The translations under genes were made by a program, and so were the position numbers. A DNA stretch of 64,000 nucleotides from Xylogone sp. PMI_703 (taxonomy: Eukaryota > Ascomycota > Leotiomycetes). The notes below the pieces were generated by a model. That model saw only the letters and a list, made by a program, of their open reading frames with translations. It was not told the origin of the DNA and made no database searches. Where the stretch lies: contig JAJTUQ010000002.1 of assembly GCA_021399445.1 (NCBI GenBank), positions 7,936,001-8,000,000 of the forward strand, in the 5' to 3' direction. Each line of letters starts with the position of its first letter. Within the stretch, counting starts at the first letter, position 1. This document shows, piece by piece, positions 21,065 through 64,000 of this stretch.

Positions 21065-22220
21065 TGTGAATATAGCGGCGTGCAACTTAGAAAAGTGACG
21101 GGATTGATAAACGTGATAGTTCTTTTGGGCCCCAACTAAATCGACACCGAGATTCATTAAATCGACACATAACAACCGATACCGGCACCACTTCAGGCAT
21201 CAGTACGACTTCTGGCCATATACAAAGACTTTGACTACAGTAGATTGCCTTCAAACCGCTAATAAGAGCCTTCTTTTGTTGCATACGTTGCAACAGTACG
21301 GAGGTACTTTCTCGGAAATTGAAGTCCTAATTCCTGAGGCACCCAATGTCTGCGTCGAGCTCCTCGAGTCCTCCAGGAGTCGACCCGTAATTACGCGTAC
21401 GCCTCAGGCAGTGAACAGCTAGATGCAGCAGCGTGGCAGCTCCCATCCATGACACTAACACCTAGCTACACAGCACGTTTGGCAATAGTCAGCGTCATGA
21501 TAAGGAAACATCACTCAAGAATGTATCATGGCTTTTGCTCTGTCGAAACATATGCGAGTGTGAAAGTATTTGACCGCAGAGCCACGAAATGAACCAGCTT
21601 CCATGAGAAAGTGGGGTTGTTGTTCATCGTCGCAATAATGAGACTGCCTTTATTTTGCGACCAGCACATTACAGCACTCGTCAAGGCACGGAGCAATGAA
21701 TACATCCTGCACATACATGCATCGCTCTACAGTAGTGACTATCCTGGGTCGGAATTTTAGATGACTCAAATGGGCCTGATGTCACGCTTTGATCCAGGTA
21801 AGTCTGCAGCTGGCACTCCACTCTCTCACTCTGTACCTGTGAATATTTATCTTAGTAGCCGATGTTGGGCTCGGGTATCATTCACTGGGCTGATTTTCAT
21901 TACCGGAGCTCGTTCGCCTGTGACCTCTCCTCATGCTGCAAACGACCCGAGCATCGGCTCTCTCACTTCTCAGGATGGATGAAGTCGGTTTCTTAGATAT
22001 TCGCTCGGTGCGGCTAGATATAATCATAGATGCATACAAGTCCTGAGGTCGGTATATAGCATGGTTCATAGCCGAATGTTAGGTACGACTGCGGTAAGTC
22101 AGCGCTCACTAGGCATTAAATTCCGTTGCAGACCCCCCCCGTGTTTGAAGTCCTCACGACACATGAATATTGTGAAAACTCTCAACATATAGATTGCAAA
22201 ACGTACTATTAACCGACTAC
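21065..22220. other. Intergenic region
   Basis: 1.16 kb, presumably divergent promoters for the F-box-like gene and the CoA-transferase. The open frames at 21231-21422 and 21761-21982 carry no recognisable domain. Confidence 0.45.
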
Positions 22221-23558
22221 ATGATGATGACCCGATTGAGCACAGGTTTACGCGTTCTCAATGGTGGAATTGCTGGTCAACCAGGCCGACTTTTACCCGC
22301 CTCACGTCGAATATTACATGGATCCCTAAATCTGAGGCCTGAAGCTCTCAGCCCGTTAAATCTTAATCAGAGGAAACAACTGTCAAGCCATTCGAAAATT
22401 CAGCGTCCGTTGGATGGTATCACTGTTGTTTCAATCGAACAAGCCGTTGCAGCGCCGTTCTGTACCAGACAGTTGGCAGACCTGGGAGCTCGAGTCATTA
22501 AAGTCGAACGTCCATTAGTTGGTGACTTCGCGCGTGCATATGACACGCGAGTAGATGGATTATCGTCTCATTTTGTCTGGATAAATCGGTCTAAAGAAAG
22601 TCTGGCACTCGATCTAAAAGCCACAAAGGATTTGCAGATCATGAAAAAGCTCCTACAGAAGGCAGATGTCCTGGTTCAGAACCTGGCCCCTGGTGCAGCT
22701 GCTCGTCTCGGGCTCTCGTATGAAGCATTGAGAGAACAGAATCCCTCTCTTATTGTTTGCGACATCTCTGGCTATGGGGCTGATGGCCCATATAAGAATA
22801 AGAAAGCTTATGATTTGCTTATTCAAAGCGAGGCTGGTCTGCTTTCTGTCACAGGCACAGGAAAGGAGCTAGCCAAAGCAGGCATCTCGATAGCAGACAT
22901 TTCTGCGGGGATGTACGCATACAGTAATATCCTAGCTGCCATTATCCAGCGGCAGAAGACTGGTGAGGGATGCAAGATTGATGTCTCCATGTTTGAAAGT
23001 ATGGTGGAGTGGATGGGCTTTCCGCTGTATTACACGTACAAGGGAGCTGCCGGTCCAACTCCATCTGGCGCAGCACACGCAAGCATCTATCCATACGGAC
23101 CATTTGACACTGGAGATGACGGCACCGTGATGCTCGGAATCCAAAATGAGCGAGAATGGGTCGTCTTCTGTCGCGAGGTGCTCGGAAATCCAGAGCTAGC
23201 AGCAGATCCGCGCTTCGTGGATAATACGGTCAGAACTCAAAATCGCGACGCCCTCAAGAGGATTATTTGCGAGACATTCTCCAGCTTCAACTCAGAACAG
23301 ATTATAGAAAAGCTGGAATCCGCAGGTATAGCTAATGCCACCGTCAATGACATGCAGAGCGTCTGGAATCACCCTCAGCTGAGATCTCGACGCCGATGGA
23401 CTCAAGTTAGAACACAGGTAGGAACAGTCTCCGCTCTAATTCCCCCCGGGATTCCTCCTGCAGAAGCTTCAGACGAAATTACACCCAGAATGGACCCCGT
23501 GCCTGCCGTTGGTGAGCATAATGAAGCGATCCTTGCGGAGCTTGGAATATCTGAATAG
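22221..23558 (+). CDS. Class III CoA-transferase (CaiB/BaiF family), probably mitochondrial
   Basis: Single exon, 445 aa from the first ATG of an ATG-ATG-ATG cluster; the frame further upstream offers only a TTG. Residues about 1-40 are basic, rich in R, S, L and lacking acids (MMMTRLSTGLRVLNGG and on), a mitochondrial presequence type. The CoA-transferase III domain starts at LDGITVVSIEQAVAAPFC and shows LGARVIKVERP, CDISGYGADGPYKNK, the catalytic aspartate in ISIADISAG (about D226) and the GEGCKIDVSMFESM block. The family moves CoA between carboxylates (succinate, citramalate, glutarate, itaconate, oxalate/formate types) through an Asp-CoA thioester. The exact acids cannot be told. It sits left of a Zn2Cys6 regulator and a fumarase-superfamily enzyme that is also presequence-bearing, suggesting a joint mitochondrial pathway. 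Confidence 0.9.
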   Translation: MMMTRLSTGLRVLNGGIAGQPGRLLPASRRILHGSLNLRPEALSPLNLNQRKQLSSHSKIQRPLDGITVVSIEQAVAAPFCTRQLADLGARVIKVERPLVGDFARAYDTRVDGLSSHFVWINRSKESLALDLKATKDLQIMKKLLQKADVLVQNLAPGAAARLGLSYEALREQNPSLIVCDISGYGADGPYKNKKAYDLLIQSEAGLLSVTGTGKELAKAGISIADISAGMYAYSNILAAIIQRQKTGEGCKIDVSMFESMVEWMGFPLYYTYKGAAGPTPSGAAHASIYPYGPFDTGDDGTVMLGIQNEREWVVFCREVLGNPELAADPRFVDNTVRTQNRDALKRIICETFSSFNSEQIIEKLESAGIANATVNDMQSVWNHPQLRSRRRWTQVRTQVGTVSALIPPGIPPAEASDEITPRMDPVPAVGEHNEAILAELGISE

Positions 23559-27680: not shown

Positions 27681-29254
27681 TTATTTCTCAGACAGCGCCA
27701 AGGTATCGTCAACCATCCTCCCTGCAGCACCCAAATAATTCAATGGATCACACAACCCTTCAAGCTCTTTCTCTTGAATACTCTTAACTACCTGATCATT
27801 TCCCTTCAGAACCTCAAACAGAGTCTTCTTTTCCTCAATAGCAGTCTTGCAAGCTTCATACACTACATCATGCGCAGTCTGTCGTCCCATGTAGGGTGCC
27901 AATCCCATCATGACTGCCTCGCCAACAATCAAACCTCTTGTGCTGTGCAGATTGCGCAGCATAGCCTCTTTGTCAACCACCAGGCCGCTGAGGGCAAAGT
28001 CAGCTTGGTGGAGAGCACCAACGGCGATGACGAAGGACTCGGGAATGGCAACCCATTCGAGATGCCATGGCCCAGAAGCACGCTCAAAATCCGCGACCAT
28101 TCCATCCAGTACCAAGCTAGCGTTGCTGCGGAGGAGTTTGCTGGCTGCGAGGATTACCTCTGAGCTGATCGGATTGCGTTTCTGAGGCATAGTCGAAGAG
28201 GCACCGCGGTGAGGGACGAAAGGTTCCGCAACCTCACCTAGCTCATTCGAACTCATTATAATTAAGTCTAAGGCTACCTTGCCTAATGTACCACCCATAA
28301 GTGCCAGGAAGTTGGTGATCTCCGCTACCCCGTCCCGGGCCACATGCCATGTGATCGCTGGATCAACAAGGCCAGTCTCGCGGGCGAGCTCCGCTCGGAC
28401 TTTGACGCCCTCGTCGCCGCTACCTAAACTTGCGAGTGTGCCCGCGGCACCACCGTACTGAACAAGTAGGGCTCGAGGCTTCAACTGCCGCAGTCGCTCA
28501 CGGTGTCTATAGAAGCCTGAAAGCCAGACAGCAGCCTTGTAGCCAAAAGTAACGGGAAGAGCATGCTGGAGATGTGTTCGACCTGCCATTGCATCGTCAC
28601 GGTACTCCTTGGCGAGCTTCTCGAGGCTAGCAATAACATCGTTAAGCTTAGATTCGACAATATCCAAACCGGCCTTCATCTGCAAAACTGATGCTGTATC
28701 CATGATATCCTGCGTTGTAGCTCCCCAATGGACGTACTTGCCATTCTCGGACCCGCAGATGGATGATAATTGTCGTACTAATGGCAGGATTGGGTAGCCA
28801 ACAATGTCTGTTTCGTTGCGGAGGCGGTCTAAGTCCAGAGCTTTGGTATTGGAAGAACATGATTCTGTGATCGCGTTCCCTACTGCGGCAGGGATAACGC
28901 CCACGGTTGACTGGGCGCGAGCGAGGGCTGTTTCGACGTCGATGCAACGAGAGATGTAAGCTTCATCGCTGAAGACCTAGGGGGATGTGAGCTTTCTTAA
29001 TATCCAATTTAAGGATTTCTTTCTTTCTTTTTATAGAAATTGAGCTCGGCAAATCTGAAGAGAGAGTACACCACCTTTCTAATCTCATCGGTACCGAACA
29101 AGTTGCGGAAGATGACCGAGTCAATTGCACTGACAGACCCGATGGATCTTGAACTCTGTCTGAGTGTCAATTGCAGTCTTAGTCGACTTTGTCGAGTTGG
29201 TTGTGATATGCTCGCGCGAGCGAGTTGACGAGAAAGAGCACGCACAGTGAACAT
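27681..29254 (-). CDS. Fumarase/aspartase-superfamily enzyme (carboxymuconate cycloisomerase / adenylosuccinate-lyase-like), probably mitochondrial
   Basis: Two exons (29254-29075, 28976-27681), 491 aa. Residues 1-40 (MFTVRALSRQLARASISQPT and on) are Arg/Ser/Gln/Leu-rich with no acids: a strong mitochondrial presequence, absent from housekeeping adenylosuccinate lyase. The lyase fold shows GATTQDIMDTA, GRTHLQHALPVTFG and the superfamily signature GASSTMPQKRNP with the flexible serine loop. Members eliminate fumarate-like products or cycloisomerise 3-carboxy-cis,cis-muconate, and fungal trans-aconitate decarboxylase is a relative of similar length. I cannot choose between these from sequence. 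Together with the CoA-transferase and the regulator across the 389-bp spacer, it looks like part of a mitochondrial acid-catabolic module. Confidence 0.88.
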
Positions 29255-37482: not shown

Positions 37483-38599
37483 ATGAAAAGTGCTCTTTAT
37501 TTCGCGTCTTCCATAGCCGCGACTCTCACTGGGCTCGCTCTTGCTCTTCCGGACACGCCTCCCAACTTCAATAATGAGTTACGGACCGTTCATCAATTTC
37601 CCAATCTCACTTGGATAGAGAACTTTGTAAATCTTCCCATGCCAGTTAAGTTCGTGTATTATGGGAGAGACTAATAATGTCAATCAATTATAGGCTATTC
37701 GTTCGAATGGGCAGATAGTAGCAACAGACGTGGCTGGCGGACGAATTTTTCTCGTCGATCCTAAATCGCCTCAGGCTGAACCCCCAGTGATCTATCAATT
37801 CCCTGAAAATACTGCTATCGCAGGTATCACTGAAGTTGAAGATGATGTTTTTTACACCGCCGGCTCTCATGGTACTGTATATAACTTCACATTTACTACA
37901 AATACCTCGGCCGTCTGGGAAGTCGATATGCGGCATTACGACCACACAAAAAAAGTATCCGTACGCAAAGTGACGGATATAACCAAGGCAATAGTGCCGA
38001 ACGGGGTGACGACACTCTCGAAACAATATGGCACAATATTGGTCGGTGACGCCGAGGGTGGCGTTATTTGGAAAGTCGATGTCAAAACCGGCGCACATGG
38101 GATTGCCATAGATGACCCTTACTTCAAACCCAATACAAGCGTGCACCCTCCTTTTGGTGTGAACGGAATCCACATCATTGAGAAGCAAACATCTAAATCA
38201 AAGTCTGTTCCCACACTTTACTTCAGCAACACGAGTCGTGGTTACCTCGGGTTTATTCCAATCTGCCCTGAGACGGGCAAGGCAACTGGTAATGCCACTC
38301 TTCTAAGTGACAGTGTACATGCCGCAGACGACTTCACGGTCGACAGCTGTGGCAATGTCTGGCTTGCCGAGAATGTGTTGAATACTCTTGTTCGGGTGTT
38401 TCCAGATGGACATGTCCAGACTATTGCGGGAGGACCAACTTCAACGGCTCTGATTGGACCGGTGGCTGTTGCTTTTGGAAGAGGATGCGATGACCGCGAT
38501 GTTCTTTATATCTCGACAGATGGATATACTGTCGATGCAAATCAGAATCCATTGACAACTAATGGGAAGATTGCTGCGATTGACGTGAGAGACGTCTAA
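37483..38599 (+). CDS. Secreted SMP-30/gluconolactonase-like beta-propeller protein
   Basis: Two exons (37483-37626, 37694-38599), 349 aa. A clear signal peptide (MKSALYFASSIAATLTGLAL, cleavage near ALALP) makes it secreted. After WIEN the intron joins to FAIRSNGQIVATDVAGG, the usual start of the propeller. Repeated blade strands follow (VFYTAGSHGTVY, GTILVGDAEGGVIWKVD, GNVWLAENVLNTLVRV), the style of SMP-30/gluconolactonase/LRE-like proteins (lactone or ester hydrolases, or non-enzymatic propellers). There are several N-x-S/T sequons. In fungi such proteins often accompany secondary-metabolite clusters. It converges tail-to-tail on the NRPS with only 268 bp between, so it may be a cluster member or the immediate flank. 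Confidence 0.82.
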
Positions 38600-38796: not shown

Positions 38797-38805
38797 ATCA
38801 GATAA
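38797..38805 (+). promoter_or_regulatory. Iron-regulator GATA motif ATCAGATAA (3' spacer)
   Basis: Exact match to ATCWGATAA, the extended GATA site bound by fungal iron regulators of the SreA/Sre1/Urbs1 type. It lies between two convergent stop codons, so a promoter role is less likely than for the four copies to the right. Confidence 0.35.
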
Positions 38806-38867
38806 ATAAAGACATATTTGCTCGTAATTTTAAGTTAGAAGTGAGGTATCGGAAAGATTTTTGGCGC

Positions 38868-41800
38868 TTAAGCTCTCTGACGATCAACTAAAATATGGTC
38901 CGAATGACAGGTTGCCAACTCCTGAACAGCTGTGGCTAGTTCATCAAGAAGTGCATCAACCAACACCACATCTCTTTCACTTCCAACTATCCCAACATTC
39001 GTTTCCCCTCCTCGAACAAAAGAGACTATTTTCAAAGGAGAAATTGCATCTCCATGTGGATTTAGGATATCCACCCTGCAGCTTCCCCCTGCAAAAGGCA
39101 TTGTGTCAAAATCCTCCCAGTCCTGATGATGGACAATCGAGTCAAAAAATTGCATCTCTGATGACCACTGCGTACACTGCTTAGATATTTTTTCAAAACC
39201 AAGGAAATCATGGGCCGCCGACTCAGCAGATTGTTTCTGTACAAATTGTAACAGGTCCATCGTGGTCCATTGGAATTCGAAGGAGATTCGTACTGGAGTA
39301 AACTGGTAACAAGGGCCCATGACCGCTGCTGCGTTTACCGAATCTAGATTCCGACCGGAAGTTACGCTGCCAAATGTCACATCTAGTATCTGTAGATGAC
39401 GAGCTAGCACTAACGCCCATGCTGCCGTGACCAAATTCGCCGTAGTAATCTCCTTGGGTCGTTGGGAGATTTCGACTGGTCTTGTTTGAAATATCGCTTT
39501 GTCCGCTGGTTGCGCTGATTTTCCGCCTATGACGGATAATGATGATTCTCTTAGAAGGCCTTGCCAGTAACGGACTGCTTTGGCCCGGATACGCTCATCG
39601 AATATCCGTGCTATATACGACGAGAATGGCTGAGAGCTGACAACATGTCCTCCGGTATACAAAGTCTCCAGATCTTGAAGGAGCACGGGCAATGAGAGGC
39701 CGTCATACAGGGCATGAGATAAGCCAATGATAAGACATGATTGACCATTCTGGTTTTGGGAGTAGAATATCCTGAGGAAAGATGACCCTAGGTGATAGTC
39801 AGATTCTATATCCATCTTGCAGATTTCTGTAACATGTTCGTCCAGATTTCCGTCGACTTGTTGCAAGGTTACGGGAACATCTATCTCGTCTAATACAATT
39901 TGAAAGAGCCTCGACTCGTGTTCAACGAAGACGGTACGTAGGATATCATGAGACTTAATAAGCTTGTTGCATGCCCGTATTATTTGATCATGATCAATAG
40001 GCTCATCAAAATATAACATCGTATACTGTATAGAGGTACGTGGTGCTTGTATCGTCGCTCTAATATCGAGCGCTTGAGAGTCTGTAGCTGGATATGCATC
40101 TTTAATTGACCAGTCTGGATTTACAAGCATAGGCTTTACAGTATCAGCCAATGACGGCTCTATATTAAGGTGACTTAATATCGAAAAGGGTTTGTAAGTC
40201 TGCGAGACCTGAGTATTTTCTTCTGATGCCTGGTTGACTTTGAGCACTTTGGCGGTATCGCCAAGGCGCATTTTTTGAAAGATGTCGGCAACTGTTAAAC
40301 TATGTCCCTGGGCACGAAGATTTGAAACCAATTTCATGGCTAAAACTGAGTCACCACCGAGGCGGAAAAAGTTGTCGTCAACCTCAATCTGCTCCGGGCT
40401 GATTCCGAGTACCTTTGCCCACGAATCGCGCAGGATATTCTCCTCAATAGTCAACCTTGATTCTATTAAATTTCTCGTCCACAGCCCTTTGAAACCTTCA
40501 CGGAGTTGCCTGAACACATGTTGTGGAATCCTAGAAGCGAGCTCATTTAATAAGTCGCGATTGATTTGTCCCGCAACAGTGGGAATTTTGTCAACTACAA
40601 CGTAAGTTGAAGGGACCATAAAGGACGGAAGAGAATCTCGAACAAATTTATTGAGTTTTTTAGTCTGTACGGTTAGACTTATGGGAATTCTGGCGCAGAT
40701 CGTGGTCTTAAGAATTTGTGGATGCAATGTCTCATAGCTTAGCTCCTGTGTCTCCGGCATGACCTCAACAGTCTCTTCGGATGAGGGAGTTAACTCTATG
40801 AAGGCAATTATCTCACGTTCTAAGGTTTCTTTTCCGCTTTCCGATGACGATGAGAACACTGCTGCTGCTACAGGAGTGGTTTTTGGGATATATCTCGTAA
40901 AGAGAGCCTCGAGATTTTCAATATCTACCACACGGCCTTGAGTCTGGAGGAAATCTTGCTTTCGGCCAACAAATATTAAGCTGCCATCTTCTTGTAACTG
41001 AACCATATCTCCTGTCCGCTGTACTCTTCCCTCCCTCCCAACAAAATCAGAGCTTCCAGCCAAAAGCCAATCTGGAGACTCAATAGCTTCTCCGGAAACA
41101 AGTGCTCCCTCAAGCCAGAGCTCACCAATACAGCCGATTGGTGATAGTAAAGAGGGGTTTTGCGGGTTACACACCCACTGAACAACTACAGGAGGATAAA
41201 TTGATCCTTGTTTAATATTGGTGTCCGCTTGAAGTCTCCCTGATGGTCCGTTCAGGGATAACGGTGGAACCTGGTTTCTTAGCCATATCTGGTTCAATTC
41301 TGACCCAGGTAAACAAGATATCTCACGAATTCTTTTAGAAAGGCCCTTCATCAGTTGCAAACAAGCCATCTCAAGCTGTGAAAGGATTCTTTTCATTTGT
41401 GAGACCGAGATTAGGCTGCTGTCAAAGCTCGCACATACTCTAAAGCCACCTTTTTGAATACCGCAGCCTAACATAAGTGGATATGGATTGAAATGTAGTG
41501 CTTCGAGTACAACGTCTCCTTTGCCAAAGCCGAGTTCACTGCCAACATAGTCTGGCTCTGGTTGGATCACTAGGCCTGTCCCGGCTTCGCATGCATGTTG
41601 AGCATCAGGACTAACCTTTCTGATATTTTGCATCCCCATATGCTGATAAGGTGTACGCGCTAACATCCCATTCTGTACAGTTTGCAAGTAAGTTTCGACA
41701 GTGCTCATCCGATTGATACGTATGCGGACTGGCACTGTTGCTATCAAGGGTCCTACGACGCTTTCGACTCCAATCAAAGGTATATCCCGACCTGTGAGTG

Positions 41801-44800
41801 TCTCACCAAACACGACATCGTTGCTTCCAGTGTATTGTGATGCCACGAGTGCCCATGCACCACGAATCAGTGTTGCCATTGTAAATGGCAATCCAGTGCC
41901 AGTTTCGAGATATATTTGCCGCTCAAGCATGGCATCTGGTGTGGGCAAGAAGTCTCTGGAGGGTAGGTGGGGGAATTGAGGACCGACAGCATCTTGCAAT
42001 TCTCGTCGCCAAAATTCATGCATGGCAACTTCGTCTATATCATGAACGTATTTAACGAAGTCCCTGATCTGTGTCTGTATCTCAATGCTTTGGTGCTGCA
42101 GGGCATTACCGACCATCTTAAGTATTAGTGGCTCCGACCATCCATCATATAGAACGTGATGCACTGTCCAAACCATGTAATGATTGCCATCCTCTGAATC
42201 CACAATGGCATATCGGGCTAGGTTTTGGCCAAGTTCCATTTTCTCATTTCGATCATTTTCCAGATATTGCGATAAATCAGTCGAATGTCTCCAGGAGATG
42301 GTTTCCTTTAGTATAACTTGTTGTAGGCCAGGCTCCTCTTGAAGCTGGGTCAAGTGAGTGCGTAAGATAGGAATTGCTGCTACAACCTGGGCCCATGCTT
42401 CCTTCCACGCATCTAAACTGATATTAGATGGGATGCACGCAACTCTTTGGGCAACATAAACCTGTGTTGACTTGATTGAGAAGGTAAATAGAGACTCTTG
42501 TGTCGGTGTACAAGGGTAGATGTCTTCGACGCATGACTTGTCTGATTGACAAGCCTGCGCCGCATCGAGACGAGCCCGCTCAACTGATTTGGTGACCATT
42601 GAAAAGGGAGGTATTTCCACCAGTTCTCTTGATACACAAATACGAACAGAACTAGCCATTGTAGACAGCGTTGGATATTCGAAAGTGTTGGCGACGGTGA
42701 GATCAAGACCTTTGGCTCTACAGAAAGATACAAGTGCCATTGCTGTCAAGGAGTTGCCTCCGAGAGCAAAAAAGTTGTCATTGGGCCGAATGACTTCTGG
42801 ATCAAGCTTTAACGCTTGGCCCCAGGCCTGTTGTAAGCGTTGCTCGAGATCGCTCAACCCACGGGTCCCGGTATTTGTTGTCTCATCATCTAGCTGCCTT
42901 AAGTCTACAGTAGTACCGAACTGCCTAAGTCGCTTGCGATCAGTCTTGCCTGAGATCAAAACCGGAATATAATTGACTGGTATGTATGCAGTTGGCACCA
43001 TATATCTCGGCAGTACCTTTGCCACATCAGCATCAGCCTTTGATAGTGTTTCACGTAGCTCGCCATGGAGTTGCATCAGACTTATATCAGTATCCGCACT
43101 CCCTTTTATGGACTGAGAAGCAATGAATGCTACCAATGTAGGTTGGCCGCCAGACCCCGAAGATACAATGACTTCAGCAATTACATTGAAGTCTGAAGGC
43201 AACCTGGCCCGAAGCTGACTCTCTATCTCACCGAGTTCGACACGTTGTCCACGCAACTTGACTTGGGTATCTTTCCGTCCAACAAAGACAATACCACCAG
43301 AGCCATCGGGATCATATCTACCGAGATCGCCGGTCTTGTACAAACGTCCTTTACGCCCTGTGTAATCTTTGTAGCCCGCAACAAGCCATGCTGGGTCATG
43401 GATAAAAGAAGCCATAGTTTTGTCAGGATCGTTTAGGTAACCTTGTCCCACAATAGGTCCTTCGACCAATATCTCCCCCACAGCACCGACTGGCATAAGT
43501 TGTTCATGATCGTTTTGGTTGACGATCCATATGGCGGCTCCATTACCTTGCCCAATTGATATGTAGTCTCGGCCAGTAGCAGCGCTGCTGTTAATAGTAC
43601 ACCCAATTGTGCATTCGCAGGGGCCATAACCTATGACAATCCTAGTATCTTGACCCCAGAGCGTAACATCCCTTGCAGAAACGGCCTCTCCTCCAAGTCC
43701 AAGAGCACTAAGCGATGTGATGACATCTGCGTCTAATATTCGAGCCACTGAAGGTGTCAAGCCCGCATAATTGACCTGCATTCTTCGTATCACTCCATTT
43801 ATATCGTTTAATCGATCCTCATCAGAGGGGATACAAAGGCGACCACCGTTCCCAAGGGTTAAAAACATGCTATCAATGCTGACATCAAAAGCATAAGATG
43901 CAAAATCAAGAACTACAGAGTTTTCTGTATAGCCTACTGCCTTTGCTCGAGGAATAGCGCTACTTGTGTATGTTTCATGAGAAATCTTTACCCCTTTGGG
44001 AGTGCCTGTGCTACCAGAAGTGAAAATTAGGTACATTAAAGTGGATGACGGTACGACTGGTAACTTTTGCACAGCTTTCGAACTCGAGATATGTGTAAAT
44101 GTGTCTGATTCCACAACAAAAAGCCTTTCACTAGGCATGATTGAGGATGATAGATCATGCTGCTGGCGGGAAGTTAGCATCATTTTTGCACCTACCTGCT
44201 GAGCCATATTTTGGAGGCGAGCGAGCGGAAGCGTTGGGTCCATGAGCACAAAAGTCGCTCCGGCCTTCATGACTGCAAGCACAGCAACAATTGTCCATCG
44301 CGACTTCTCAAAACACACTGGAAGGACGTCATTTAACTCAACACTCATTTCTTGAAGTGAAGATGCAACCAATGTCGAATAATGGTCGATTTGAGTATAT
44401 GTCAAATCACCATCCCAAGATGAGATCGCCACTTTATCTGGAAACCTTTGAGCTTGTTGGCAAACCATTTCATGCATACAAAAGTTGTAAGAAGGTGGTA
44501 GAGTATGATTCCAGCCCCATATCGCATCAAGGTCATGAGCTGTTGGCCGCAGACACTCCTCAATTGAGGCGCTTGCGCTTGAAATACTCATTTTGACAGT
44601 ATCTACCAGGGTCTCGATATATCGTGTCACTGTGTATTCCATCATGTTCTTGGTGCGCCACGCTGGACGGATCCTCAGATAGCCAGCACTAAAAAATATT
44701 TCGAGGTGCAGCACTCCCTTTGCTCACGATAGTCAGCTATTTGATAAACTAAAACTAGATTGTGTGCTCACTTCATCCTTTGTTTCCTCTGGCATTCCAG

Positions 44801-45203
44801 ATAAAGAGATGGTGCTCAAAAAGAGCGAGACTGGACCTGGCTCGGTCGCATCCACATTTGGAGTGAGAAATGTGACTTTACGACAGATCGCGGCGGCAAC
44901 ATCTCTAACATTACTTTGTAAATTTGGTATCACTTCCTCCATGGACATACGACTATTCAAGAGCTCATGTCCAGGTTTACCTACTGGGCCTCCATAAGCC
45001 CATTCATAGCAGATCTGGCTACCTTCCTGCGTGCGCAACAGCACAATGAGCCAGGATAAAAGCAACAGTTCATCTTTCATGCCTGTCAAAGAGGTATTCT
45101 GATCAGATTGAAGACCAGTGATCTCGAAAGATCTGAAGGTAGTATCATCCTTTTGGCTGGTGGAGAAACCGCAGGCGGGTTCATCTTTCAGCATCGAACC
45201 CAT
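38868..45203 (-). CDS. sidD: Bimodular NRPS, A-T-C-(degenerate A)-T-C, extracellular-siderophore synthetase type
   Basis: Two exons (45203-44772, 44717-38868), 2093 aa. Domain order with approximate residues: N-terminal leader 1-200; adenylation 1 at 210-745 (FTSGSTGTPKGV, YAFDVSIDSMF, GYGPCECTI in place of YGPTE, YKTGDL, GRKDTQVKLRGQRVELGEIE, catalytic lysine in LISGKTDRKRL); thiolation 1 (NFFALGGNSL, Ser about 800); condensation 1 (HHVLYDGW about 997); a second adenylation fragment about 1330-1540 that keeps only the late motifs (VQRTGDM, FVGRKQDFLQTQGR) and has GQINRDLL where the lysine motif should be; thiolation 2 (FFRLGGDSVL, about 1601); condensation 2 (LSHALYDG, about 1811). This architecture and length are those of SidD/NPS6, which links hydroxyornithine-derived units into fusarinine/triacetylfusarinine-type siderophores. 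Product identity here is inference. It is divergent from the SidA-like gene. Confidence 0.88.
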
Positions 45204-45660
45204 TCTCCCAAACCGTCCAGCTCTGCTTCTCAGCCAACTCCTGGCAAGGTTTTAAGATTGGTGGAACGAGCACAATCAGGACGGTTGGTTCAGCCCACCA
45301 GAGATCCGCGCAAGAGATCAAGTTCAACTGTCGTGATATTACGCTTCCTGTATAGCAAAGACGTGCCAGGATTTTCCTCCAGTGACCGTGAGGTGACGAG
45401 GGTTGCTCCGTAGAGAAACTGTACCGCACACACACGCGCGCACACACATCGGCCAAGTCACACTGAAATGGGCTACGAAACAGCGAAGCGCGAAACAGCG
45501 GACTAGGACTCATTCAACAATTGGTTACATCCTTGAAGACTGCAAATGAAGCCAAGCAGGAGGCCTTGGCCCGCATGCAGTGAGTTGCCCTCGTATTGGC
45601 CCCATAATTATTCGGCGGAATCGCACGGCGTGCTCATAGACCAATCCGGTTGCTGCCCCC

Positions 45661-45674
45661 CATCTGATAAGATG
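45661..45674 (+). promoter_or_regulatory. Iron-responsive GATA site, copy 1
   Basis: CATCTGATAAGATG contains ATCTGATAA, an exact match to the SreA/Sre1/Urbs1 consensus ATCWGATAA. The 14-mer is itself a near-palindrome (CATCT/AGATG arms). It lies about 460 bp upstream of the NRPS start. Confidence 0.7.
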
Positions 45675-45691
45675 AAAACTCTGCACCATCT

Positions 45692-45705
45692 CATCTGATA
45701 AGATG
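45692..45705 (+). promoter_or_regulatory. Iron-responsive GATA site, copy 2
   Basis: Identical 14-mer repeat of copy 1, spaced 31 bp start-to-start (about three helical turns). Paired sites on the same DNA face are a common arrangement for GATA repressors. It lies about 490 bp upstream of the NRPS. Confidence 0.7.
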
Positions 45706-46256
45706 AACAATCATGCTTAAGTGGGGAATAGCCAGGATTGAACACCGAGCCCGACTCGCGCCATAAGCACTGTACCTATAAAGTGCCGTACCGATACCGG
45801 TACGGATCCAATGCATGATGCAGAGCTTTCTGGCTGAGGCTTGGATCCACCAGAGTATTGGTAACTTAACACGCAGTCAGTTTCCCTCTCTCGGATCCGA
45901 ATTGGTTTTGTCTTTTTCCTAGCCCGGCTGTCATTTCTTCAGAAAGGTCTAGATCCATTTAAAACTGGAGAATCTGGCCAGAGAGTGTACCGCACATCCA
46001 ATCACACAGTGTACATGATCCACGCAATGAACGTAAAGCTATATTAGATGATCAGATTAGATAACAGCATTGCGAGCACGGATCAGGTACGGAGCCAGGG
46101 GCCGGTAGCTTCGCTGCGCTTGGTATTCCGGAATCCTGTCCTCCTCGGCATCTTCGCATACATTACCGGAGTTAGAAGCTTCATTGATCATCTCTTTGCA
46201 GTAGTCTCTCTCAATATAAGCTTGGCCCCGAACTGTTAAGGCGGCCATGGAAGAAC

Positions 46257-46265
46257 TTATCTGAT
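46257..46265 (-). promoter_or_regulatory. Iron-responsive GATA site, copy 3
   Basis: TTATCTGAT on +, ATCAGATAA on the minus strand; with its flanks it reads GATCAGATAAG, a full match to the extended (G/A)ATC(T/A)GATAA(G/A) form. About 680 bp upstream of the SidA-like start. Confidence 0.6.
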
Positions 46266-46944
46266 CACCAGGTTTGATGCAGGATCCATGCAACGGCAGC
46301 ACCAAAACCCACGCTCAACCTGCTGGAATCCATCGAAGCCTACCTTGCAAGAATAGCGGATGCCATGAACAAGAACGTCACATGGTTATTGTCATTCCAC
46401 TTTCTCCGGCAATACCCTTCTCTTCCAAAACTGCGTGAGCTATTCCGGTACCTGTTGGCCTCCCAGCGGGTTTCTGTTGGGTTTTGGGCCGCATCAACGA
46501 GTGGTTGGTTAGTTTTCATATTGTATACCTGCAATTACTACCCAATGGCGCCCGCATTCCTGCTATTATATTCGCCGTCCGCAGGGTGCAGTGTCAGAGC
46601 TTTTGGAATATTTATGTTGTAGCGAGTTTGTGATAGATATGTGTATGGCGGTCTAGAAACTTGGGAACATCATTGAAAATTTAGTGTACGTTGTAGCCCT
46701 AGTCAGCAAGCTTAACCCCCGCCAGGCTTTAAGCAAGGAGTAATAGCCGGTGAGCTTCACGCCACCATTGTTGGTAGCTTGTGGGCAGTTCCAGCCGTTA
46801 TATACATGTACTAGTAGATACTTGATGATAGTCTCAGTATCCACAGGCTATAGCTACCTTTGCACTCATCGTACACCTCAATCATTCTAGTTTTTCAAAT
46901 ATTTTCATGTTGATAGTTTCTGTCATCTATTTGATGTCCTAAAC

Positions 46945-47831
46945 ATGGACCAGCTTAGTGAAATCTCCGCCCAGCGCAAAGTTTTACAGCCTTCGGTGCC
47001 ACACATCTATGATCTCGTTACTGTTGGCTTTGGAAACAAAGCGCTGGCTCTCGCGACGGCGATAAAAGACCATGATACATCTAATAATGTCGTTTTCCTC
47101 GAGCAAAACAGTTCATTCGAAGAAGGTAGTCACGATAATCGAGACCTGGATACGGAATCACATGATGTAATGCAGAATTCATTCATGCATGACCTCGCGA
47201 CATTACGAAATCCAACTTCTCAGTTCACGTTTCTAAACTACTTACAGGCTCAAGGGAGACTGGAAGACTTTATAGAGCTCCAAAGCGAACAGGTTAGAGA
47301 GGAGAACGATGGTTTCCTCCGACCACTAAAAGACGAATTCTATAAGTATCTATCTTGGGCGGCGGGATTCTTTGGAGACTTTGTGAGCTACGGGGAAGAA
47401 GTTATCCAGGTTTCCAGAATAAGCAAGTACGGACCCAAATCCCTGTGGAGAGTGGTTTCCAAGGATGTGAGCACGCAGGATACATTGGTTCGATATGCAA
47501 GGAACGTGGTGTTTGCCAATACCGAACATATGGCTAGCATTGCAGGAGACGATGTATCGATGTGAGTATCATCTTGACAATTCTTTTATTTTAACCTATC
47601 ATAGCAATGATTTGGCTGATCGTACTTGGTAGGAACCAGGAAGATTCTTTGGAGGACGAATTGAGGCCACAGGTAAGCTATTCACAAGCCATTCATAGAG
47701 AAACAAACACTGATTCCGTACTCTAGAGACACGGCGATGATCAATTCACTACCCTCGCCATGTATAGCGGGGACCTCATAGATTCAGTGTTCAACGATAA
47801 TAGGCTGCTATTGATTAGAGCTATGCTGTAA
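46945..47831 (+). CDS. Truncated ornithine N5-monooxygenase (SidA)-like protein
   Basis: Three exons (46945-47561, 47633-47672, 47727-47831) join in phase to 253 aa, half the ~500 aa of SidA. The N-terminal FAD-fold and substrate half is recognisable: YDLVTVGFGNKALALATAI (SidA-type enzymes have GFGPASLA), VVFLEQ, then MHDLATLRNPTSQFTFLNYL and YLSWAAGFFGDFVSYGEEV, all close to family consensus. Missing are the FAD-motif proline/alanine, the usual WHxGM...MQ stretch (replaced by an acidic insert, EEGSHDNRDLDTES) and the entire NADPH-binding domain. Exons 2-3 (beginning NQEDSLEDELRP) match nothing I know. True family members hydroxylate ornithine, the first committed step of hydroxamate siderophores. 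This protein should not be able to, so it is a relic or has another role. It is divergent from the NRPS with GATA sites between. Confidence 0.75.
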
Positions 47832-49010
47832 TGTATAACGGAAACATGTGCCAGAGTTGCACGATGCAGGAGCAAGTTGCGTTAGCGTTGAAAAAAGTGG
47901 CACAAATGATAGATTAAACCAGCGGTCTTTGTAATATATTGTTGCATTGGTATAAAGCAGCAGCTAGACTAAATTACACACATTCCTCCAAGCTCCAAAC
48001 CATTCTCGCCATTATTCCACAGAAATCTGCTCCTAGCTGAGCCGTGGCTCCGTTTATCCACCGCCACACTGCTCCCCAATGCCTTGTCTACTTTCTAGCG
48101 CCATGCTGCTTTTGCTAGTGACGCTGAGTCTCCGTGATCGGACGTGATGTTTCGTAAAATGCAAGCAGTGTGGATACTACTCTTCAGAGGCTACAAGTGT
48201 GGTGATGGATTGGGCACCTTCGCCGATCTAGCGCCATCTGATAACTTTAAAGCGACCGAGCGGAATCCCCAATCAGCTTCCGCATTCCTTCTCGTGCCCA
48301 GCCCTCTATTATTGTCACTTTTATATAGGCTCATGCAGATGAATATCCATAGGTCATTTGCCAGCAAACGGAATCTAGCTCATAGTTACGTGATACGGAG
48401 TCATTTCTTTAATCTCCCCCTTACAGAATTTCCAGCTTGTTCCATCCGAGGTGCCCGACTAGTCTGTCCCTAACTCTTCAGTTCCTTGATTTAGTAATCC
48501 TTAACGATTAATGAACTCTAGAAGGCGGCTATGGAGCATGAGCTCGCGGCATGTTCCACGCATTACAACTTCAGCTGCGGTGGACAGTGGAGCAGAGCAC
48601 TTCTAAGCCCCATGATAGAAATTCGGTGATTGACCATGTTCATGCCCCGCCACCTTCGTAGTGCAGAACACATTCTATAGCCTAGATACTCTTGTTGAAT
48701 AATGCTCTCGTTGCACGCACGCTGACCTCAAGCCATTTTCTAAGAAATTGAACGTAGTAAACAAGGAGAAAAATGGAGATGGAGGAACATCTACTTTTAC
48801 AATACTACAGTACGCCATGGGCTTCCACACATGTATATTACAAATTCAATTTTAAGTATCTATTAATACTGCTAGCCCTTGCCGACCAACAGGCACACTA
48901 ACCTGTACCTATTTGCCCCACCCCTAGAATTCGAGAGTACCGGGGAGTACATTAATATCGTACTGGATCATCATCACGCGTCTCATCCAGAACCACTTGG
49001 AAGCTCGTAA
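47832..49010. promoter_or_regulatory. Upstream region of acyl-CoA ligase
   Basis: 1.18 kb, no gene I can support (open frame 48144-48473 has no domain). It contains one exact ATCTGATAA iron-GATA motif, listed separately. Confidence 0.5.
48236..48244 (+). promoter_or_regulatory. Iron-responsive GATA site, copy 4
   Basis: ATCTGATAA, an exact ATCWGATAA match, about 770 bp upstream of the ligase start and in the same intergenic region. Confidence 0.55.
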
Positions 49011-56818: not shown

Positions 56819-57697
56819 ATGGCTTCCCCTATTCTGGTTACTGGCGCAACTGGTACCACCGGCCTAGCCGCAACCAAAGAACTCCTACAGAGAGCATTAT
56901 CGGTACGCGCATTTGTTCATACCAATGACGATCGTGCACGCCAACTCGAAGCCCAAGGAGCTGAAATATTTGTTGAGGACCTTCTTGATTTGCGTTCAGT
57001 TCGCCGTGCATTGGCAGGCGTCAAGCGTGCTTACTTCGTGTATCCAGTTCGACCCGGCCTCATCGATGCAACCGCAAATTTTGCCCAGGCTGCTAGAGAG
57101 GCTAAGGTCGAATTCATTATCAACATGTCCCAGATCACAGCCTGGCCAGATGCTCCCAGCAATGCTGCGCGGAACCACTGGGTCGCAGACCGCGTCTTCG
57201 ATTGGGCGAGAACACCTGTGACACATTTACAGCCTACTATGTTTCATAAGTTGTTGGTTTTCTCACGCAAGACAATTATTGAAGCAGGAGTCTTCGGCGT
57301 TTTCTTTGGCCCATCTGGCAAATTTGCGTCAGTGTCAACTGAGGATTTGGGACTGCTTATTGCAACAATGCTTGCCAATCCTTCGGACCATGGGGGAAAG
57401 ACTTATCAGTTTTTTGGCCCTGAGGAGTTAACAGCTCCAGGGACTGCGGAGGTTCTCAGCAAGACTCTTGGGAGAAAAATTCGTTACGAACAGGTTAGCG
57501 CTGATGACTTCATCAAGTCGTTCGCCGGCGGCAAGAGCATTCCGTACCTTGAGCAGCATTTCAACGGAGCAGCTCAGATGCACCATGATGGAGTTTTAGC
57601 CGGGACAAATGACTCACTCGAGAAAATTATAGGTCGACGTCCTGAAAGCCTTGTTGAGTTTATCGAGAAGAATCGGGGTTTCTGGGAGGTGAAGTAG
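56819..57697 (+). CDS. NmrA-like / atypical SDR NAD(P)-binding oxidoreductase, copy 1
   Basis: Single exon, 292 aa. The Rossmann fold starts at once: PILVTGATGTTGLAATKELL (GxxGxxG). AYFVYPVRP, FIINMSQITAWP and HLQPTMFHKLL follow, the layout of the NmrA/TMR-type NAD(P)-binding proteins (PF05368/PF13460), which act as redox sensors or reductases on quinone- or lactone-like substrates. There is no canonical YxxxK catalytic pair at the expected place, as is usual in the NmrA branch. No targeting signal. It is a stand-alone gene. A second NmrA-like gene lies 3 kb to the right on the same strand but is multi-exon and only distantly similar, so the two are not a recent tandem duplicate. Confidence 0.88.
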   Translation: MASPILVTGATGTTGLAATKELLQRALSVRAFVHTNDDRARQLEAQGAEIFVEDLLDLRSVRRALAGVKRAYFVYPVRPGLIDATANFAQAAREAKVEFIINMSQITAWPDAPSNAARNHWVADRVFDWARTPVTHLQPTMFHKLLVFSRKTIIEAGVFGVFFGPSGKFASVSTEDLGLLIATMLANPSDHGGKTYQFFGPEELTAPGTAEVLSKTLGRKIRYEQVSADDFIKSFAGGKSIPYLEQHFNGAAQMHHDGVLAGTNDSLEKIIGRRPESLVEFIEKNRGFWEVK

Positions 57698-63127: not shown

Positions 63128-64000
63128 CTATGCTTTCAAGGCTGCTACAATGGCGTCTCCAACTTCTACGGTGCTAGCTTTTCCACGCAAGTCACCCGTC
63201 CGAACACCAGACTCAATAACATTTCGCACAGCATCTTCAATCTTCTTTGCTTCAGCCTCCATACCAAAGGAATAACGAAACATCATCGCCACGCAGAGAA
63301 TCATTGCGACTGGGTTTGCAATACTCCTACCAGCAATACTAAATATATCGAAGTCAGCACTCATGGGTTACATTCAGAGATCACATGAAAGATCTGGAAG
63401 CCCTTACTCGGGAGCAGAACCATGGGTAGGTTCATATAGTGCATGGTGCTTTTTACCAGACTTGTCACCTGGAAGACTATTCAAACTTGCAGATGGCAAA
63501 ACACCGAGGGTGCCAACAATGGAGCCGGCTTGGTCAGATATAATATCTCCAAAAGTGTTATCAGCAAGAATCACACCGTTTAGAGAACGAGGATTAATGG
63601 CCAAAATCAGTGCTGCTGAGTCGGCGAGCTGAGTCCAGCATTTCACTTGAGGATACTCATTTCTCATTGTTTCCTCAAATACCTTTCTCCACAACCGAGA
63701 TGATGCAAGGACATTTGCTTTGTCCAGGGAAATAACCGGCCACGGAGGATCATGTCTCAATGCCAACTCCGCCGCTACGCGAGTGATGCGTTGAACCTCT
63801 TCAGCTGTATATCCCCATTCGTCCATGGCATAGGTGTCGGTTTCGTGCTTTTTACCGAAATACGCACCACCACAGTTCTCCCTCACCACTAAGAAATCCA
63901 CTCCTTCAACAATTTCTTGTCTGTAGGGGCTGAACTCCTTGGTAATTGAGGGACTGGGAGACTGTGCCGAGGCTGGTCGCAGGTTGGCATAAATATCTAG
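63128..64000 (-). CDS. 3-isopropylmalate dehydrogenase, 3' part (runs off right edge)
   Basis: Two visible exons (64000-63408, 63338-63128), about 268 aa of an enzyme that is usually ~360 aa; the N-terminal NAD fold lies outside the window. Visible motifs: LDIYANLRP at the edge, [12 protein letters not shown] (substrate arginine region), [14 protein letters not shown] with the catalytic lysine, the family signature [25 protein letters not shown], and HGSAP joined across the intron to [15 protein letters not shown]. The enzyme oxidatively decarboxylates 3-isopropylmalate in leucine synthesis (LEU2/LeuB family). IPMDH-like paralogues also occur in secondary-metabolite clusters, so this could be either the housekeeping gene or a paralogue; the visible part cannot tell. 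Confidence 0.92.

Follow-up and report, generated by a model that had tools for sequence, protein, structure and literature searches.

Genes and iron-regulator motifs of the SidD locus

We analyzed a 64,000-nucleotide stretch of the genome of Xylogone sp. PMI_703, a member of the Leotiomycetes (contig JAJTUQ010000002.1; hereafter the window, C12:7936001-8000000, with contigs denoted by C and a number), which carries a siderophore locus built around a large nonribosomal peptide synthetase (NRPS). An earlier sequence-only reading of this DNA had noticed that ATCWGATAA, a motif bound by SreA-type iron repressors, is concentrated at this locus, and had suggested that the whole locus is regulated by iron. 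The NRPS can be assigned to SidD, because it has a SIDD_N domain and 65-67% identity to Aspergillus fumigatus SidD. Pfam matches comprise SIDD_N, one AMP-binding (adenylation), two condensation and two carrier domains; identity to the A. fumigatus protein is 67% for exon 2 and, over 2067 aligned columns, 65% for P0050, the database entry from this genome. The splice model agrees with P0050 across the junction (ETKDEG-VLHLEIFF). It should be noted that the sequence of such an NRPS does not by itself tell fusarinine C from coprogen as the product (PMC5932178).

A gene related to the N-terminal half of SidA is transcribed divergently from SidD and is followed by an acyl-CoA ligase gene. The predicted protein of the latter ends in AKL, a signal of the peroxisomal targeting signal 1 (PTS1) type; it thus shows both the ligase domain and the peroxisomal signal by which SidI is recognized, and the SidI label denotes this likeness. 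Peroxisomal signals have been described in SidI, SidH and SidF, with PTS1 in SidI of Sordariomycetes and PTS2 in other ascomycetes (PMC3709128); the predicted AKL terminus would be a Leotiomycete example of PTS1.

An exact scan of both strands found exactly five copies of ATCWGATAA in the window, at the positions first noticed by eye (Table 1). The promoter placement proposed for four of them was borne out: three lie in the divergent SidD/SidA-like region and one lies upstream of the SidI-like gene. Sites 1, 2 and 3 precede the SidD ATG by 459, 490 and 1054 bp, respectively; site 3 also precedes the SidA-like ATG, by 680 bp, and site 4 the SidI-like ATG, by 767 bp. The remaining copy is not in a promoter. 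It ends 63 bp past the SidD stop, facing a convergent open frame that ends at 38599, and a functional role for it is unlikely. The direct repeat described in the SidD promoter is present, although it had been given as a 14-mer and the repeated word is actually 16 bases long, CATCTGATAAGATGAA.

Table 1. Features of the SidD locus, in window coordinates
Feature	Position	Strand	Evidence
ATCWGATAA copy in 3'-3' gap	38797..38805	+	exact scan
SidD exon 2 (fusarinine-type siderophore NRPS)	38868..44717	-	Pfam + splice model
SidD exon 1, ATG at 45203, SIDD_N domain	44772..45203	-	Pfam + splice model
SidD/SidA-like divergent intergenic region, three ATCWGATAA sites	45204..46944	.	motif scan, gene models
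Pair of extended sites, ATCTGATAAGATGA twice at 31-bp spacing	45662..45706	+	motif scan
ATCWGATAA site 1	45662..45670	+	exact scan
ATCWGATAA site 2	45693..45701	+	exact scan
ATCWGATAA site 3	46257..46265	-	exact scan
Half-SidA exon 1, N-terminal Lys_Orn_oxgnase, profile 1-154 of 339	46945..47561	+	Pfam + splice model
Half-SidA exon 2 (predicted)	47633..47672	+	splice model
Predicted half-SidA exon 3, encoding a short C-terminal tail with RAML at its end	47727..47831	+	splice model
ATCWGATAA site 4	48236..48244	+	exact scan
SidI-like acyl-CoA ligase, five predicted exons, 588 amino acids	49011..51061	+	Pfam AMP-binding on exon 1 + splice model

Iron genes and regulators across the genome

ATCWGATAA was defined as the SreA motif in A. 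fumigatus, where its copy number upstream of 49 putative SreA-regulated genes is 5.4 times the genome average, and the regulon there includes sidA, sidC, sidD, sidF, ftrA, fetC and hapX (PMC2610380). At sufficient iron, the ftrA promoter was derepressed once a motif of this kind in it had been mutated (PMC10294635), and the same motif logic has been applied to other fungi (PMC10382037). We scanned the whole assembly (50.13 Mb, 25 contigs), a check that had been proposed for the iron-regulation claim. There are 1359 copies of the motif (664 + 695) versus 907 (443 + 464) of the reversed motif used as control. The equal density across the genome that would have spoken against the claim was not seen.

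A candidate regulator is encoded at C20:5342369-5342914. Its two GATA zinc fingers, with a Cys-rich stretch between them in a by-eye reading of the translation, correspond to the SreA/Urbs1 architecture. For the target side, eight iron genes were chosen by protein family or position: SidA, a SidC-type NRPS, SidF-like, SidL-like, two FTR1 genes, HapX-type and SreA; a third-ranked PF13523 gene (C1:2005106) fell under the family cut-off and was excluded from the gene count. Six of the eight have one to five copies of ATCWGATAA within about 1.5 kb upstream (P about 1e-7 at a 4% chance each), with the restriction that two members of the set, SidF-like and the FTR1 gene on C22, first surfaced in the motif pair search. 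SidA has four copies, 1346-1564 bp upstream; there are two at SidF-like and at the FTR1 gene on C12, five at the FTR1 gene on C22, and one each at the SidC-type NRPS and the HapX-type gene. As controls, we used ten non-iron loci (other flavoproteins and GATA factors), taken as 3.1-3.4 kb pieces around domain matches, not as mapped promoters; these 32.3 kb contain no copy, against 0.88 expected.

The true SidA gene lies at C20:5484461-5485648, on a different contig from the SidD locus, and the large NRPS beside it was labelled SidC from its sequence and place. A 27-bp stretch upstream of SidA, C20:5487422-5487448, contains three sites, two that overlap head to tail and one that is inverted. One FTR1 gene (minus strand) is divergent from a multicopper oxidase (plus strand, start not mapped) at C12:7221270-7225594, and the two motif copies in the gap are on the FTR1 side; the second FTR1 gene, with its five upstream copies, is at C22:2519356-2520780.

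Regulation of the SidD locus by iron through an SreA-type repressor, as first proposed, is supported by the crowding of the motif in the two promoters, the identity of SidD, the two-finger GATA factor, and the presence of the motif at other iron genes together with its absence from the control loci. We conclude that the locus is very probably iron-regulated via SreA. With equally high confidence, we take it to be the extracellular-siderophore (SidD) cluster of this fungus under an SreA-type iron-sensing GATA repressor. By analogy with other fungi, SreA would occupy the sites when iron is sufficient, so that SidD, the half-length SidA gene and the SidI-like gene are repressed together; when iron is scarce, the repressor would leave, and HapX and other activators would act. 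Such regulation is a new instance of a known regulon and is expected from other fungi.

Extended and paired sites

Within the repeated word of the SidD promoter lies ATCTGATAAGATGA, an extended form of the site. In the genome, ATCWGATAAGATG has 20 copies at 16 loci (7.2 expected of 1359 sites), and its reversed control has 2. The extended 14-mer ATCWGATAAGATGA has 12 copies at nine loci, versus 1.97 expected of 1359 sites (P about 1e-6). Seven of these loci belong to iron-acquisition families, namely SidD, SidF-like, SidH-like, a multicopper oxidase that reads as Fet3-like, two ferric reductases, and a major facilitator superfamily transporter with a TRI12 match that reads as siderophore-transporter-like. 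With 12 copies versus 1359, the 14-bp site marks iron-acquisition loci far better than the 9-mer; provided that related fungi show it too, prediction of the regulon from sequence could become feasible in this lineage. It is one class of site and not the sole one: SidA, SidC, both FTR1 genes and the HapX-type gene have ATCWGATAA with other flanks. A wider form, ATCWGATAANNTGA, with TGA after any two bases, has 40 copies (reversed control, 13), 12 of which are the GATGA form; locus context is known for four of the other 28 (C1:293832, C1:4518611, C1:4518841 and C12:5022968), and this form was set aside without being disproved.

Direct pairs of ATCWGATAA with 0-30 bases between the copies occur seven times in the genome, and the reversed pattern has none. 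In three of the seven, GATGA follows both copies: at SidD, at SidF-like and beside SidH-like, with a spacing of 31, 34 and 33 bp, respectively. The 17-mer ATCTGATAAGATGAAAA occurs three times in the genome, exactly at these elements (reversed control, 0). The three spacers are more alike than most shuffles: of 5000 shuffles, the observed score was reached by 1 for SidF-SidH, 17 for SidD-SidF and 118 for SidD-SidH. The element beside SidH-like (C1:293807-293853), which can be described as triple or paired, is located some 200 bp beyond the stop of that gene. It shares with SidA the overlapping tandem ATCWGATAATCWGATAA, which has exactly two copies in the genome.

SidF-like (GNAT Acetyltransf_8 in Pfam, C-terminus AKL) and SidH-like (enoyl-CoA hydratase, C-terminus SKL) are on two further contigs, and their labels are likenesses drawn from Pfam family, C-termini and reading, without comparison to characterised proteins. 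By these assignments, all three loci with the paired element belong to the secreted-siderophore branch. In A. fumigatus, sidF, sidH and sidD have the consecutive locus numbers AFUA_3G03400, 3G03410 and 3G03420 (PMC5932178), and in Cladophialophora carrionii one upstream region is common to sidF and sidH (PMC10382037). The likeliest origin would be descent of the three elements from one element of an ancestral sidF-sidH-sidD cluster, kept since then. With about three helical turns between the copies, a pair of repressor molecules may sit on one side of the double helix. A paired element in three dispersed loci of one pathway would show that the regulation of a cluster can survive its break-up.

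Alternative explanations of the sites

The extended and paired elements could be mainly composite sites of HapX and the CCAAT-binding complex, in which the GATA part is incidental. A HapX-type gene is present in the genome, and the first SidD site has a CCAAT box about 20 bp away. If this explanation held, CCAAT should be enriched beside the iron sites; however, CCAAT or ATTGG is found within 40 bp of 11 of 32 iron sites and 5 of 24 other sites (P 0.21), compared to 24% of nearby random positions. The composite site was rejected on this count, and the explanation is highly improbable.

Even less credence is due to a chance cluster of a common 9-mer without function. In 100 dinucleotide shuffles of the window, ATCWGATAA occurred 1.90 times on average (standard deviation 1.47), and at least five copies were reached by three of the 100; the chance figure of roughly one copy per window, given at first, was slightly low. 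The genome rate gives 1.74 copies per 64 kb; at this rate, P for at least five copies is only 0.03 for the whole window, and one of the five is the copy in the 3'-3' gap. Conversely, 0.26 copies are expected in the 9.4-kb stretch that holds the five sites (P 7e-6 for the 9448-bp interval, the bounds of which were set after the sites had been seen), and the three sites in the 1741-bp SidD/SidA-like promoter have P of 1.7e-5. The motif at six of eight other iron genes and at none of the ten non-iron loci, and the restriction of the 17-mer to three loci of one pathway, also argue against chance.

A GATA core is common to GATA factors, and two of the seven GATA-finger matches in the genome are the fingers of the SreA-type gene, with five at other loci. 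Nevertheless, it is scarcely credible that the sites serve a different GATA factor, of the nitrogen AreA/Nit2 type or the light-response type, since the palindromic ATCWGATAA was worked out on the SreA regulon of A. fumigatus and agrees with the in vivo sites of orthologous factors elsewhere (PMC2610380), and its carriers here are iron-uptake genes.

Several observations weigh against SreA-type repression. The interval 38797-48244 was picked after seeing the sites; the rate used is the genome mean, and the promoter rate may be higher; and with 1359 copies ATCWGATAA is common, so that most copies cannot be operators. The SreA gene has no copy in a 10-kb stretch, and SidL-like has none in its 3.4-kb locus, which perhaps holds little of its promoter. 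At two of the nine ATCWGATAAGATGA loci the gene has no obvious link to iron: one encodes a sugar transporter, the other a histidine phosphatase. Two of the seven paired loci are not at an iron promoter: C12:5023308 is inside an open frame without a Pfam match, and C12:7227371 is downstream of a multicopper oxidase, 1.8 kb from its 3' end. The element beside SidH-like is downstream of that gene and about 530 bp upstream of a gene that we name ribulose-phosphate 3-epimerase from its translation, a position that the idea of an ancestral promoter leaves unexplained. Either this epimerase responds to iron, or the element works from a place downstream of SidH.

A half-length paralogue of SidA

The gene divergent from SidD had been described as SidA-like. 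Its homology to the N-terminal half of SidA stands, but it is not SidA, since about half of SidA is missing; we refer to it as half-SidA. Pfam detects no domain binding reduced nicotinamide adenine dinucleotide phosphate (NADPH), and the match of the protein to the SidA-type profile covers just positions 1-154 of 339. The tail encoded by predicted exon 3 resembles the C-terminus of SidA in a tail-profile comparison (probability 82%, E 1e-5; a single comparison). GFG of the GxG motif that binds flavin adenine dinucleotide (FAD) is kept, whereas the following residues and WHxGM are changed.

We compared half-SidA and 16 short relatives, the matches of two protein searches scoring above P0177, with the SidA of this genome and 19 longer relatives. 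P0177 is the first match with Pyr_redox in the second search (best 120 of 673 matches); lower-scoring short matches without Pyr_redox, such as P0200, P0203 and P0245, are outside the tree. All 17 short proteins group in a single clade (100/99), separate from the 20 full-length-type proteins and from three sequences of 425-430 amino acids. The lysine of the SF(L/I)KDL motif, which we take to be the substrate-binding residue of SidA, is kept in 20 of 20 full-length-type proteins (P0177 and P0178, of 309-310 amino acids, counted among them) versus 0 of 17 short ones, a count that is not independent of sequence choice because the search profile was built from short proteins. At this position, 107 as counted by hand on the SidA chains, all 17 short proteins have His, Gln or Tyr, and the Trp of WHxGM is kept in one of them.

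Half-SidA is 60-73% identical to four short relatives, and five relatives of 249-266 amino acids, including those of Halenospora varia and Phialocephala subalpina, share a similar tail (RAML, RAVL or RAAL). The host is known for three of the 16 short relatives; these two and Venustampulla echinocandica are all Leotiomycetes. In Venustampulla, the short protein and SidD are each on a contig of 1,340,527 bases, presumably the same one. A model of the relative P0174 was of moderate quality (mean predicted local distance difference test score 68, predicted template modelling score 0.68), and a Foldseek search with it returned A. fumigatus SidA at all ranks from 1 to 36 (best E 4e-14, template modelling score 0.54). 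The P0254, P0269 and P0273 sequences (Alternaria, Pyrenophora and Clathrospora), a group that we take to be Pleosporales, are the three of 425-430 amino acids: they are SidA-like and nearly full length, have no Pyr_redox match in Pfam, and have Tyr for the lysine in all three, a possible parallel pseudoenzyme. Their placement as sisters of the half-SidAs is compatible with the tree but not demonstrated (approximately unbiased test, p 0.30).

From these features, half-SidA would be a conserved paralogue of half the length and is probably no ornithine hydroxylase; its shape suggests an old internal deletion, the remainder of which has been preserved as a short protein. The alternative is a decaying pseudogene. 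It draws on the lack of the NADPH domain and of the substrate lysine, on database splicing (P0001) that differs from the model used here, and on the relatives themselves, most of them without a known host and several of them short-contig reads. Sclerotinia sclerotiorum is also a Leotiomycete. Its extracellular siderophore cluster is reported to lack an ornithine monooxygenase gene, with three such genes elsewhere (PMC6941272), which counts against a wide presence of half-SidA. The single clade, the shared tail, the identity to relatives and the uniform absence of the lysine argue the other way, so that decay is unlikely and half-SidA is likely to be a maintained protein.

Any part that half-SidA plays in regulation or as a scaffold is a guess; in other fungi, SidA forms a tetramer. 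A fuller proposal, possible but doubtful, is that half-SidA is a conserved, iron-co-regulated SidA pseudoenzyme, which lost the NADPH domain by an ancient internal deletion, kept the FAD-fold half and the tail in several Leotiomycetes families, and controls or scaffolds the true SidA or channels hydroxyornithine to the SidD pathway. If it is conserved, half-SidA would add a component of a new kind to siderophore synthesis in fungi.

Comparison with other fungi

The Xylogone sites resemble the A. fumigatus SreA regulon (PMC2610380; orthologues Urbs1, Sre1 and SREB) in the same 9-mer upstream of genes and the same type of two-finger, Cys-rich regulator. Unlike in A. fumigatus, the site is often extended to ATCWGATAAGATGA, and three loci have a paired copy with a similar spacer. 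The layout, with SidA near a SidC-type NRPS and SidD with the SidI-like gene on another contig, is like the two-cluster arrangement of Scedosporium (PMC5932178) and Cladophialophora (PMC10382037), and a second SidA-type gene is in the sidD cluster of C. carrionii as well (sidA2; PMC10382037). The differences are that the second SidA-type gene of Xylogone is half-length and that SidF-like and SidH-like are on two further contigs. Compared to SidA L-ornithine N5-monooxygenase (PDB 4b63, 6x0h), half-SidA has a homologous N-terminal FAD-fold half and a similar C-terminal tail, whereas the short proteins lack the NADPH domain and lysine 107.

We also searched the literature (open-access papers). 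Among the matches listed, no title concerned siderophore genes of Xylogone, and none of those for GATAAGATGA concerned fungal iron; searches for GATAAGATG and TCATCTTATC with siderophore gave matches, none on fungi. No description of a truncated or pseudoenzyme SidA was found among them, and of the papers listed for sidA2 only that on C. carrionii contains the name. Within the same matches, the parts without a description are the extended site, the paired element and half-SidA, and a known regulatory rule is extended here to a genus for which no such analysis was found.

Other genes of the window

No copy of ATCWGATAA falls at the other window genes recognized by Pfam: a CoA-transferase family III gene (22194-23558), an adenylosuccinate-lyase-family gene (27681-28904), an NmrA-like gene (56819-57697) and an isocitrate/isopropylmalate dehydrogenase gene (63404-63901).

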